From Streptomyces sp. R44 (lineage in GTDB: Bacteria > Actinomycetota > Actinomycetes > Streptomycetales > Streptomycetaceae), in NCBI RefSeq assembly GCF_041053105.1, contig NZ_CP163444.1, positions 806,001 through 870,000 of the forward strand: a stretch of 64,000 nt of DNA, given 5' to 3'. Position 1 is the first letter of the stretch. The number at the start of each line of letters is the position of its first letter. Both the position numbers and the translations under genes were made by a program. Shown piece after piece: positions 5,076 to 8,933 of this stretch. The notes under the pieces were generated by a model. It saw only the letters and a list, made by a program, of their open reading frames with translations, was not told where the DNA came from and did no database searches.

Positions 5076-5855
5076 TCAGACCTCGTACACGTACGGCGTC
5101 GTGGTCGTCAGCGTCAGGAAGCCGAGGCGGTGGAGGATGGGGCGGCTGGTGTCCGCCGCGTCGACCTGGACGTAGCGGAAGCCCCGGGCGGCCGCGATCC
5201 GGGCGCGGTGGGCGACCAGGGCGCGGTAGAGGCCCCGGCCGCGCCAGCCCTCGACGGTGCCGCCGCCCCAGAGGCCCGCGAAGTCCGTGCCCGGGTACAG
5301 CTCCAGGCGGGCGGCGCTGACGGGCTCCCCGGCGGCGAGGGCGACGACGGCGGTGACCGTGTCGGGGTCGGCCGCGAGCCGGTCCAGAAGCTGGCGGCCG
5401 ATGTCGGAGCTGTCGGTGCCGAAGGCGCGCTCGTGGACCTCGACCACCTGGCGGACCCCGGCCTCGTCGGTGACGGCGCGCAGCTCGACGCCCTCGGGGA
5501 GCGGGACCTCCCCGGGCAGGGCGGTGGCCGCCTCGGCGGCCATCAGGGTCTCGGGCTCCTCGGGGGTGAAGCCCGCCGCGCGGAGCCGGTCGCCGAGGTC
5601 GGCGGGGGTGTCGTGCCCGTACAGCTTCCACTCGAAGGACAGCCCGGCGGCGCCGTAGTGCCGGATCTGTCCGGCGATGGCGCGGTCGGCGTCCTCGGTG
5701 TCGACGCCGGACCAGAGGACGCCGTTCCACGCGTGCGCGGGGCCGGTCTGCCGGACGACGGCGCCGTCGCGCTCGACGCGGCAGCCGGGGCCGTCGGGGC
5801 GGGCCTCCTGCCGGAGCTGGAGGTCGTACAGGTCACGCAGGTGCTGGGGTTCCAT
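5076..5855 (-). CDS. GNAT-family N-acetyltransferase
   Basis: A 259-residue protein with a C-terminal GNAT fold. The acetyl-CoA loop is GGGTVEGWRGRGLYRALV (about 200-218), followed by YVQVDAADTSRPILHRLGF, the usual final strand-helix. The N-terminal 120 residues are not recognisable and may be a degenerate second GNAT domain. ATG at 5855 is chosen because upstream the frame becomes a low-complexity shadow of the encapsulin gene. It follows the encapsulin gene on the same strand, but a very strong hairpin lies 19 nt upstream of the start, so co-transcription is doubtful. Substrate unknown. Confidence 0.85.
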   Translation of the reverse strand: MEPQHLRDLYDLQLRQEARPDGPGCRVERDGAVVRQTGPAHAWNGVLWSGVDTEDADRAIAGQIRHYGAAGLSFEWKLYGHDTPADLGDRLRAAGFTPEEPETLMAAEAATALPGEVPLPEGVELRAVTDEAGVRQVVEVHERAFGTDSSDIGRQLLDRLAADPDTVTAVVALAAGEPVSAARLELYPGTDFAGLWGGGTVEGWRGRGLYRALVAHRARIAAARGFRYVQVDAADTSRPILHRLGFLTLTTTTPYVYEV

Positions 5856-5922: not shown

Positions 5923-7344
5923 TCATGCGCGCGGACGCACCTCGACGTTCTCGAGGATTCCGACCGCGTCGGGCACGAGGATGGCGGCCGAGTAGTAGGC
6001 GGAGACCAGGTAGGAGATGATCGCCTTCTCGTCGATGCCCATGAAACGGCAGTTGAGGCCGGGCTCGACCTCGTCGGGCAGACCGGTCTGGTGGAGGCCG
6101 ATGACGCCCTCGTTGTTCTCGCCGGTGCGGACGGCGATGATCGAGGAGCTCTGCCGGTCGGTGACCGGGATCTTCCCGCAGGGCAGGAGGGGAACCCCGC
6201 GCCAGGCCGGCAGGTCACGTCCCTCGACGTCGACGGTGCCGAGCGTGAGGCCCCGCTTGTTGCACTCCTTGCCGAAGGCGGCGATGGCCCGGGGGTGGGC
6301 GAAGAAGTAGTCGGTGTCGCGGCGCATGCTGAGCAGGTCGTCGAGGTCGTCCGGGGTCGGCGGGCCCGAGTGGGTCTGGATGCGCTGGTCGAAGTCGGTG
6401 TTGTGCAGCAGCCCGAACTCGGGGTTGTTGACGAGCTCGTGCTCCTGGCGCTCACGGAGCTCCTGGATCGTCAGACGCAACTGCTGCTCGGTCTGGTTCA
6501 TCGGCTGGTTGTAGAGGTCCGCGACGCGGGTGTGCACCTTCAAGACGGTCTGGGCGACGCTGAGTTCGTACTCGCGCGGCTTGAGCTCGTAGTCCGCGTA
6601 CGCGCCGGGCAGGGCGGCCTCGCCGACGTGGCCGGCACTGAGCTCGATGGCGGCCTCGCCGGCCCGGTTGACGGGGCGGGGGTGGCCGTTCGAGCCGGCG
6701 TTCAGCACATGGTCGCGGAGGTTCCCGTGCTGCTCGGCGACGGCCAGGTAGGCGGTGCGGGGCAGTGCGAGGAGGGTGACGGCGGTGACGGCCTTGGCGG
6801 TGAAGTCCCAGGCCCCGTCCCCGGCGAGCACCTGTCCGCCGAAGGTGTCGCCGTCGCCGAGCCGCCCGAGGACGGTCTCGTCGCCGTACTGCCCGGTGCC
6901 GAGCTTCTCGATCTTGCCGTGGGCGATGAGGTAGACCTGGTCGGCCGGCCGGCCGGCGTGCACGACGACCTGGCCGGGCTCGAACTCCTGCTGGACGAAG
7001 CGGTCGGCGAGGGCGCCGAGCGCGGTCGGATCGTCGAAGCCGCGGAGCAGCGGGAGTTCGGCCAGCTCGGCGGGGATGACCTCGACCCGGGAGCCGCTCT
7101 TGACGAAGGTGACGCGGCCGTCGCCGACCACGTACGAGAGGCGTCGGTTGACCCGGTAGACACCGCCGGGGGTGTGGACCCAGGGGAGCTTGCGGAGCAG
7201 CCAGCGGGAGCTGATGCCCTGCATCTGGGGTTCGGACTTGGTGGTGGTGGCGAGGTTGCGGGCGGCCTTGGTGCTGAGGCTGAGCTGGACCTGGCGGATC
7301 TCGACGGCGGGCGGGGTGGCCGCGGGCTCGGTGTCGACCGACAT
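5923..7344 (-). CDS. Family 2B encapsulin nanocompartment shell protein (HK97 fold with cyclic-nucleotide-binding insertion)
   Basis: A 473-residue protein. The N-terminal arm (15-75) contains [27 protein letters not shown] and YRVNRRL, which I recognise from streptomycete family 2 encapsulins. Residues about 98-212 form a Crp/Fnr-type cyclic-nucleotide-binding domain ([29 protein letters not shown]) inserted in the E-loop region, which defines family 2B. The rest (230-473) is the HK97-like shell portion ending [11 protein letters not shown]. Family 2B shells are known to assemble into capsids around terpene cyclases or polyprenyl transferases carrying disordered loading peptides. No such cargo gene is in this window. 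ATG at 7344 is chosen because the frame upstream is low-complexity; GGAAAG lies upstream of it. Confidence 0.92.
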
Positions 7345-7646
7345 GGGGGACTCGCTTTCCGGGGGGCTTGCGGACTCGCGTACGTGACTCTCCGCGTCCA
7401 GATGTAACGCACAGTGGTGTACGTCATCCGGGTGCGGCGCGGGCGGGCGGGAGCGCCGGACGGCGATGGCCGCCCCGCGAGCGCCCCGCGCGCTCCGCCG
7501 TCCGGGCGGCCGCACGGACGGGAAAAGTTCGCCCGCCCCCTTGCCAAGCCCCGGGTACCTCCGGTTTTACTGACCCGGAACGGATCAACCGAATGATCGG
7601 TAGTCCGTTTTACGACGGCATTGACGACGGCGGAGGTGCGGCGCGC
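7345..7646. other. Divergent 302-bp promoter region between encapsulin and phenylacetate-CoA ligase
   Basis: This gap must hold both promoters. On the encapsulin side I see no convincing -35/-10 pair. On the ligase side an inverted repeat lies at 7579-7609 and GGAGG precedes the ATG by 10 nt. No open frame here looks like a gene. Confidence 0.6.
7579..7609 (+). promoter_or_regulatory. TetR/PaaR-like operator upstream of the phenylacetate-CoA ligase
   Basis: The core ACCGA-ATGA-TCGGT (7588-7601) is a perfect inverted repeat of 5-bp arms. It is flanked by outer arms AACGG and CCGTT, with spacers differing by 1 nt. The core fits the ACCG-N6-CGGT layout that I recall for actinobacterial PaaR sites. 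No paaR-type gene is adjacent, so the regulator must be encoded elsewhere. Confidence 0.55.
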
Positions 7647-8933
7647 ATGACGGAACTGCTGGACAGCGGCGAACGGCTCGGACGCGAGGAGCTGGCGGCC
7701 CTCCAGCTGGAGCGGCTGCGCGCCACCCTGCGTCACGCGTACGAGAACGTGGACTTCTACCGGCGTTCCTTCGACGCGGCCGGACTGACCCCGGACGACT
7801 GCCGTACGCTCGCGGACCTGGCCCGCTTCCCGTTCACCGCCAAGTCGGACCTGCGCGAGCACTACCCCTTCGGCATGTTCGCCGTCGACCAGTCCAGGAT
7901 CCGGCGGATCCACGCCTCCAGCGGCACCACCGGCCGGCCGACCGTCGTCGGCTACACCGAGGCCGACCTGGACATGTGGGCCGACGTGGTGGCCCGCTCC
8001 CTGCGCGCCGCCGGGGCGCGCCCCGGACACAAGGTCCATGTGGCGTACGGATACGGCCTGTTCACCGGGGGCCTGGGCGCGCACTACGGGGCGGAGCGCC
8101 TGGGGTGCACGGTGATCCCGGCCTCCGGCGGCATGACGGCCCGCCAGGTGCAGCTCATCCAGGACTTCCGGCCCGAGATCATCATGGTGACCCCCTCGTA
8201 CATGCTGACGCTGCTCGACGAGTTCGAGCGGCAGGGCGTGGACCCCCGCTCGACCTCGCTGAAGGTGGGCGTCTTCGGCGCGGAGCCGTGGACGGAGGAG
8301 ATGCGCAAGGAGATCGAGGAGCGGTTCGCGATCGACGCGGTCGACATCTACGGCCTGTCGGAGGTCATCGGCCCGGGCGTGGCGCAGGAGTGCGTGGAGA
8401 CCAAGGACGGCCTGCACATCTGGGAGGATCATTTCTACCCGGAGATCGTGGACCCCTTCACCGGCGAGGTGCTGCCCGACGGCGAGGAGGGCGAGCTGGT
8501 CTTCACCTCGCTCACCAAGGAGGCCATGCCGGTGATCCGCTACCGGACCCGTGACCTCACCCGGCTCCTGCCGGGGACCGCGCGGGTGTTCCGCCGGATG
8601 GAGAAGGTCACCGGGCGCAGCGACGACATGATCATCCTGCGTGGGGTGAACCTCTTCCCCACCCAGATCGAGGAGATCGTGCTGCGCACCCCGGGCGTGG
8701 CCCCGCACTTCCAGCTGCGGCTGACCCGGGAGGGCCGGCTCGACCGGCTGACGGTGCGGGCCGAGGCCCGTCCGGACGCGACGCCCGAGGAGCGCGCGGA
8801 GGCGGCCCGGGCGGTCGCGGCGGCGGTGAAGGACGGGGTCGGGGTCTCGGTGGGCGTGGAGGTGGTCGACCCGGAGACGCTGGAGCGCTCGGTGGGCAAG
8901 ATCAAGCGGATCGTGGACCTGCGCGAGGGCTGA
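7647..8933 (+). CDS. paaK: Phenylacetate-CoA ligase
   Basis: A 428-residue member of the PaaK branch of adenylating enzymes, of normal length. It converts phenylacetate, ATP and CoA to phenylacetyl-CoA. Motifs are HASSGTTGRPTVVGY (phosphate loop), DIYGLSEVIGPGVAQEC (adenine pocket), and GRSDDMIILRGVNLFPTQIEE in the C-terminal domain. ATG at 7647 follows GGAGG. The rest of the paa catabolic operon is not in the window, so it works either with unlinked genes or on another aryl acid. The gene symbol is by family resemblance. Confidence 0.9.
   Translation: MTELLDSGERLGREELAALQLERLRATLRHAYENVDFYRRSFDAAGLTPDDCRTLADLARFPFTAKSDLREHYPFGMFAVDQSRIRRIHASSGTTGRPTVVGYTEADLDMWADVVARSLRAAGARPGHKVHVAYGYGLFTGGLGAHYGAERLGCTVIPASGGMTARQVQLIQDFRPEIIMVTPSYMLTLLDEFERQGVDPRSTSLKVGVFGAEPWTEEMRKEIEERFAIDAVDIYGLSEVIGPGVAQECVETKDGLHIWEDHFYPEIVDPFTGEVLPDGEEGELVFTSLTKEAMPVIRYRTRDLTRLLPGTARVFRRMEKVTGRSDDMIILRGVNLFPTQIEEIVLRTPGVAPHFQLRLTREGRLDRLTVRAEARPDATPEERAEAARAVAAAVKDGVGVSVGVEVVDPETLERSVGKIKRIVDLREG

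Follow-up and report, generated by a model that had tools for sequence, protein, structure and literature searches.

A lone Family 2B encapsulin shell gene in Streptomyces, very probably the last member of a terpenoid cluster that lost its cargo genes in place

What does an encapsulin shell do when no enzyme is encoded beside it? The question is raised by a gene in a 64,000-nucleotide stretch of the Streptomyces sp. R44 genome (hereafter the window; G000:C1:806001-870000), which carries the locus label L053 and whose product had been described in an initial annotation as a Family 2B shell with a cyclic-nucleotide-type insert. This description and its coordinates hold. The open reading frame, with its stop codon at 5923-5925 and its ATG at 7342-7344, encodes a protein that scores 741.2 bits against the Family 2B equivalog of NCBIfam (encap_f2b, NF041163; cut-off 400) and 345 against the 2A shell model, under the cut-off of 380, and both Pfam scores listed in Table 1 far exceed their cut-offs. 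The HK97-type, SrpI-like domain is furthermore present as judged by PF19307 and by the solved 2B chain 9bhu_A, which matches residues 19-469 with 644 bits, while two other solved 2B shells, 9bje and 9bix, match above 619 bits; the fold comparison proposed as a test of the annotation is thus in agreement with it at the level of sequence. An AlphaFold model based on 19 sequences was too poor for use (mean pLDDT 53), the inserted domain being predicted best. By these matches the gene is a member of an already described family, the 2B encapsulins, in an instructive evolutionary state, and all of its 27 nearest named relatives are from Streptomyces.

Table 1. Features of the shell locus, in positions of the window
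Feature	Position	Strand	Remarks
GNAT acetyltransferase, flanking gene, not shell partner	5076..5855	-	
Perfect hairpin, 20 bp, 6-nt loop	5873..5918	-	starts 4 nt past the shell stop codon
Family 2B encapsulin shell gene, orphan copy (own cargo very probably lost)	5923..7344	-	473 aa plus stop
HK97-type shell domain, SrpI-like	5935..6678	-	residues 223-470; Pfam PF19307, 449.9 bits
cNMP-binding-like domain, insert in shell protein	6727..6990	-	residues 119-206; Pfam PF00027, 61.5 bits
Conserved upstream element GTTACATCTGGACGCGGAGAGTCAC	7384..7408	-	probable promoter or operator of the shell gene
PaaK, phenylacetate-CoA-ligase-type enzyme; divergent flanking gene, not shell partner	7647..8933	+	

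The statement that neither a terpene cyclase nor a polyprenyl transferase occurs in the window is confirmed by searches that covered these two types and GPP methyltransferases. Whole-genome searches with Terpene_syn_C_2 (PF19086) and polyprenyl_synt (PF00348) gave no match between 806001 and 870000, no GPP-methyltransferase-like gene (GPPMT) was matched in the same interval at E <= 1e-30, and at the site itself no remnants of a cyclase or methyltransferase were detected at E 1e-4. The genome, a single contig of 8.89 Mb, holds three PF19307 matches, at 0.81, 5.72 and 7.33 Mb, and among these three shells the window copy alone is without an adjoining partner. Behind the shell at 7.33 Mb (L004; 63% identical to the window shell) come a cyclase (NF041167, 484 bits) and a GPP methyltransferase (NF041943, 481 bits), which is the 2-MIB arrangement, and behind that at 5.72 Mb comes a polyprenyl synthase of the encapsulin-cargo family (NF041169, 483 bits, cut-off 450). 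There is likewise no second shell gene within 10 kb of the window shell, such as a two-component 2B operon would have. In the survey of PMC8346489, linked cargo is described as having been sought within 20 ORFs of 2B shells; here a geosmin-synthase-type cyclase is encoded 12.3 kb from the shell, outside the window. The suggestion to look genome-wide for prenyltransferases with long disordered N-termini did not bear fruit, since no unlinked PF00348 gene stood out by eye. The genome has five such genes, one of them shell-linked with its Pfam match starting at residue 74, and of the others L173 and L174 have an N-terminal extension of roughly 30-50 residues and L171 and L175 have little, again by eye and with our own start calls.

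A more telling record is found in the relatives. Orthologues of the shell (E <= 1e-213, 70-100% identity) occur in 33 of 392 genomes of the genus, and 30 of their neighbourhoods were covered, including that of the window itself and leaving out G146, G275 and G289. By tblastn, 15 of these hold a cyclase and a methyltransferase, one a degenerate cyclase and a methyltransferase, five a methyltransferase only and nine neither, the last being the window copy and four same-site relatives, L043 and L091 as a second lineage, L045 and L084. Twelve of the 15 intact cyclases match an L083-type query best and three the 2-MIB-type query. The order PaaK - shell - GNAT is found in the window genome, in G317, G291, G224 and G004 and in S. 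nymphaeiformis (L180), and the shell is alone at this site in L053, L074, L075, L076, L037 and L180. In L077 (G384) and L038 (G098) a methyltransferase lies between the shell and GNAT and the cyclase is absent, and in Streptomyces sp. ISL-36 (L181) the same interval from PaaK to GNAT is occupied by a shell, a cyclase, a GPP methyltransferase, a P450 and a cupin. The ISL-36 shell is 84% identical to the window shell. Its cyclase, of 434 aa, has a Pro/Ala-rich N-terminus with GPTGLGTSAVR and GPTGLGTSAAR and is recognised as encapsulin cargo by NF041167 (520 bits, cut-off 400), its GPPMT scores 530 bits (cut-off 400) and is 95% identical to the methyltransferase of L077, and its GNAT, 73% identical, is cut by the end of the examined stretch.

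Other loci of the collection show further arrangements. In Streptomyces sp. TRM64462 (G331, L088) the cyclase lacks about 30 inner residues and, at 347 bits, stays under the cargo cut-off of 400, and this cargo gene (6066-6875) is apparently decaying beside a shell orthologue and an intact methyltransferase. In L039, L078 and L079 (G006, G210, G251) a GPP methyltransferase directly follows the shell and there is no cyclase, which may represent a loss intermediate or a shell/methyltransferase pair. In the 11.4 kb of NRRL S-87 (L179; shell 82% identical) no cyclase, methyltransferase, GNAT or PaaK accompanies the shell, which is an orphan at a different site. In Streptomyces sp. B-S-A12 (L195, 6462-8602) the order is shell - methyltransferase - 2-MIB-type cyclase, the reverse of the other cluster-bearing loci examined. 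L049 and L052 (G018, G035) are two-shell operons without a cyclase match that are followed on the same strand by a conserved protein of 1,124-1,129 aa. In ISL-36 the P450 and the cupin (L181, 8925-10701) make the cluster a candidate for the synthesis of a methylated, oxidised terpenoid.

In a shell tree of 41 rows, from which L045, L084 and the more distant L046 were left out, the orphan shells are nested among cargo-linked ones. The window shell groups with L074, L075, L176, L076 and L180 (100/97) and next with L037 and L177 (94/94). A 12-row set (100/97) takes in this group together with L038, L077, L179 and ISL-36, the cluster-bearing L178 is added in a 13-row set (99/97), and all of these lie within a 22-row set (100/99). 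Since L077 pairs with ISL-36 (97/93), the cyclase was lost separately in L077 unless ISL-36 regained it, and it was probably lost more than once inside the 12-row set, the branching order of which has weak support. For the label 'cyclase and methyltransferase' the tree requires six changes, which are not all losses, since outgroup rows of other types are counted as well. Within the clade the cyclase was lost or decayed, with retention of the shell, at least three to four times (the L088/L039/L078/L079 group, L077, the L038-window group and L043/L197). From the loci of the relatives and the tree we can conclude that the shell very probably stems from an ancestral cluster between PaaK and GNAT. 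This would have consisted of the shell, a cyclase with a Pro/Ala-rich N-terminus and GPTGLGTSA(A/V)R tags and a GPP 2-C-methyltransferase (with a P450 and a cupin), and would have lost first the cyclase and next the methyltransferase, both in place, with the shell staying behind. The initial annotation had left a choice between unlinked cargo and a new pairing, and this best-supported answer, a cognate cargo once present at the same site, was not among its options. As far as titles and the beginnings of abstracts in the full-text literature go, most subscription papers being outside that search, no description of in-place cargo loss was found for encapsulins.

The element upstream of the shell gene differs from the 25-base consensus at two positions in the window copy and recurs with 0-3 mismatches in L074, L075, L076, L180, L037, L077 and L181 (ISL-36), and in more diverged form in L088 (4 mismatches), L038 (5) and L179 (6), but was not found (11-12 mismatches) in L178, L078, L079 or L043. 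It is common to the cluster-bearing ISL-36 and to orphan shells and probably serves the shell gene as promoter or operator. The hairpin on the other side is a probable transcription terminator that would separate the shell from GNAT; the 86 nt around it fold with -63.8 kcal/mol (z -6.2), and related hairpins, mostly shorter, are found 3' of the shell in L074, L075 and L076 and further downstream in L037. With the upstream element kept and the terminator-like hairpin in place, the gene is probably still expressed as a single gene.

What then would be the present role of the shell? The closest genes are indeed a GNAT acetyltransferase and a PaaK-type ligase, as annotated, and by their nearness either could be taken for a new cargo in a new shell/cargo pair, the more so as acetyltransferases are described in PMC8346489 as enriched in polyprenyl-transferase 2B operons. 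However, in 10 of 10 relatives chosen for a close GNAT without an orthologous shell (GNAT identity 83-88% in eight, 79% in two) PaaK and GNAT adjoin without a shell, in the same divergent arrangement and 0.2-3.5 kb apart, and they are therefore not shell partners. Furthermore, GNAT is present in 284 of the 392 genomes (E <= 1e-80) against 33 for the shell orthologue, the strong hairpin lies between shell and GNAT, PaaK is divergent, and by eye neither protein has a tag or a Pro/Ala-rich extension. On the shell-free neighbourhoods and the distribution both were rejected as cargo, such a pairing being extremely improbable, and of the two options of the initial annotation it is unlinked cargo that survives as a candidate explanation of what the shell does at present. 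No trace of a shell, cyclase or methyltransferase is seen at the ten shell-free sites at E 1e-8, and the cluster was either inserted between PaaK and GNAT or lost in those relatives. The same ten sites, together with the stepwise loss of the neighbours, might rather suggest a relic in early decay, with the cargo gone and the shell next. In agreement with this, dN/dS (w; Nei-Gojobori counting, which is crude at this base composition) is 0.62 (dS 0.05), 0.40 and 0.40 (dS 0.10-0.11) for the pairs among L074, L075 and L076, which could be slackening selection; all ten orphan pairs span 0.22-0.62 with the high values at small dS. Against decay, each of the six orphan copies at the site has retained an open frame, the upstream element is kept, and the window shell gives w of 0.22, 0.24, 0.29 and 0.22 against the four other orphan shells compared, or 0.13, 0.11, 0.22 and 0.15 for the HK97 domain alone, with 0.17 for the second orphan pair, L043/L091. 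Eight cargo-linked shell pairs lie at 0.17-0.34, four methyltransferase-only pairs at 0.15-0.24, and the neighbour genes at 0.10-0.15 (PaaK) and 0.24-0.41 (GNAT). These ratios support that the shell gene is still under purifying selection, and decay is an improbable account of it.

Two further explanations draw on other shells. The window shell might be the second component of mixed shells formed in trans with the 2-MIB-type or the polyprenyl-synthase shell of the genome. Co-assembly of S. lydicus Enc1 and Enc2 into mixed shells is described in PMC12407261, and both potential partners are 2B shells encoded singly, the one beside a 2-MIB-type cyclase and GPPMT and the other beside a polyprenyl synthase, but the genes are megabases apart, the other shells are just 63-64% identical to the window copy, the upstream element was not found (11-12 mismatches) before either of them, and the tag of the 2-MIB-type cyclase, GPRGLGTAGL, is another one, all of which makes this quite unlikely. 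A job independent of cargo, as reported for EshA, a multimer on which normal ppGpp levels, antibiotic production and development are said to depend, is also unlikely, though it keeps some plausibility because EshA is linked to ppGpp and antibiotic production in PMC6627660 and PMC5839063. According to the latter, eshA is SCO7699 and adjoins the 2-MIB genes SCO7700 and SCO7701, which is the arrangement of the L004 shell; according to the former, EshA is needed for adequate (p)ppGpp, and the title of a cited work has it forming large multimers. Retention of shells after cargo loss in several lineages of the tree would likewise fit a cargo-independent role. The phenotypes belong to other shells, however, none of them ties the window copy to ppGpp, and the 2-MIB-adjacent shell of this genome is to the window copy a paralogue, not a counterpart.

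The explanation we favour, and consider reasonably probable on the sequence evidence, is that the shell is the last member of a terpenoid cluster, still selected, probably expressed and assembling, and loading a tagged cyclase in trans. The protein most likely still assembles as an HK97-type shell, and this would most likely take up a tagged terpene cyclase from elsewhere in the genome, which is our first guess as to the nature of its cargo. The first candidate is the geosmin-synthase-type cyclase, as it ends in GPTGLGTSAAR, the tag of the relatives of the lost cargo.

This two-domain enzyme (G000:C1:797395-799593, 732 aa) is encoded 6.4 kb beyond the left end of the window, and its C-terminus ends in RGPTGLGTSAARVAELLGSAAR, a copy of the tag between the two domains being degenerate. 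Both GPTGLGT and GPTGLGTSAAR are put forward in PMC8346489 as possible targeting sequences of 2B cyclases. Exact GPTGLGT has two matches in the genome, and the geosmin synthase is the sole one in sense; the second, at 3996983, runs antisense to a gene and was taken as chance. The looser pattern GPxGLGT is uninformative beyond the two cyclases already known, since it gives 6 matches in the genome and its reversed control 12. Geosmin-synthase loci are found in 28 of 30 genomes, with the C-terminal GPTGLGTSAAR exact in 14, variant in 7, absent in 5 and unreadable in 2. The tag is nevertheless present in 8 of 8 relatives without a shell at the site (exact in five, with one change in three). Linkage of the gene to the PaaK/GNAT region is likewise seen whether or not a relative has the shell, and the window shell is thus not singled out by either tag or nearness, both being kept where the site is without one. 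Against the GS-like encapsulin cargo model NF041168 the geosmin synthase of the window genome scores 1135.4 bits over its full length, below the cut-off of 1200, and of four shell-clustered geosmin-synthase-type genes (1218, 1214, 1202 and 1194) three pass. A 2B shell adjoins such a gene in L050, L051 and L201, and in L042, an orthologue of the window shell, the two are clustered with a 2-MIB-type cyclase and a methyltransferase between them. Across the 392 genomes (shell at E 1e-60, geosmin synthase at E 1e-150), 7 of 8 shell-less genomes have no geosmin synthase, against 10 of 384 shell-bearing ones (Fisher 5.7e-10), and a single one of the 375 genomes with geosmin synthase is without a 2B-like shell. 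The control gene GNAT is missing in 7 of 8 and 101 of 384, respectively (6e-4), a weaker bias in the same direction, and shared ancestry or reduced genomes may for this reason explain much of the co-occurrence. Because the score is under the cut-off, tag and linkage are independent of the shell and the control is biased as well, the geosmin synthase is a doubtful candidate for the cargo now loaded by the window shell. That 2B shells outlive their cargo as shared compartments, with the window shell rewired to geosmin synthase by way of GPTGLGTSAAR and geosmin of Streptomyces made inside shells, is rather unlikely.

The canonical phosphate-binding cassette of cyclic-nucleotide-binding domains reads FGE and contains a Glu and an Arg. 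Compared with this motif, the window copy has FGG in place of FGE and no Arg at the usual place, and the intact cassette, with both Glu and Arg, that would be taken to indicate gating by cyclic nucleotides is thus absent from it. FGG is also found in the aligned orthologues, cargo-linked ones included, whereas the other two shells of the genome read FGE, and the Arg is by eye absent from all three. The proposal of ligand-gated pores is weakened as far as cyclic nucleotides are concerned by the FGG, the missing Arg and a statement in PMC12407261 that the 2B insert does not bind cyclic nucleotides, and canonical cAMP gating of the window shell is unlikely. The same source places the insert above the two-fold pore, where it is situated in solved relatives, and by analogy it may tune this pore, but not via ordinary cyclic-nucleotide binding; a ligand of another kind might conceivably act as the gate. 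Elsewhere in the protein, ten positions are peculiar to orphan shells and none is readable as a cargo site without a structure. Motif 1 of the window shell, with residues 343 and 345, has the form RRDTD; the first of these two is Asp also in L043 and L091, and Gly, Lys or Ser in the cargo-linked shells of the clade.

Shells that have no obvious cargo are usually footnotes of surveys, but here one site shows a series from the full cluster to a shell that stands alone and is still selected, and a direct experiment on a 2B shell without a dedicated enzyme is therefore possible. Should tags prove to be shared, terpene cyclases and shells may be interchangeable, and the neighbours alone would not reveal the cargo of a shell. 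The orphan shell of the window is thus a good case for asking what purpose an empty-looking bacterial compartment serves.

Among known systems the 2-MIB encapsulin or EshA type (SCO7699-7701; L004) resembles the window locus in having a 2B shell with a cNMP-like insert, and the putative ancestral order of shell, tagged cyclase and GPP methyltransferase is likewise the same, but the window shell is only 63% identical to that of L004 and its own cyclase and methyltransferase are gone. The relatives of the window shell are of the cyclase type, as in the 2B operons with terpene cyclase cargo described in PMC8346489. The Family 2A shells (SrpI; 6x8m) share the HK97-type domain, at 274 bits, yet are without the insert, and the window shell falls under the 2A cut-off of NCBIfam. 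By the motif sequences quoted in PMC12407261, 9bje and 9bix are Sl-Enc1 and Sl-Enc2 of S. lydicus, to which the window shell is alike in fold and insert by sequence, with the matches above 619 bits; unlike these, it is a single gene without a second shell within 10 kb, and it has its own versions of two diagnostic motifs, one of them being MRRD. Two-component 2B operons without obvious cargo are already set apart as a category ('Other') in the same source; in the present case the loss can be traced at one chromosomal site through its intermediates.
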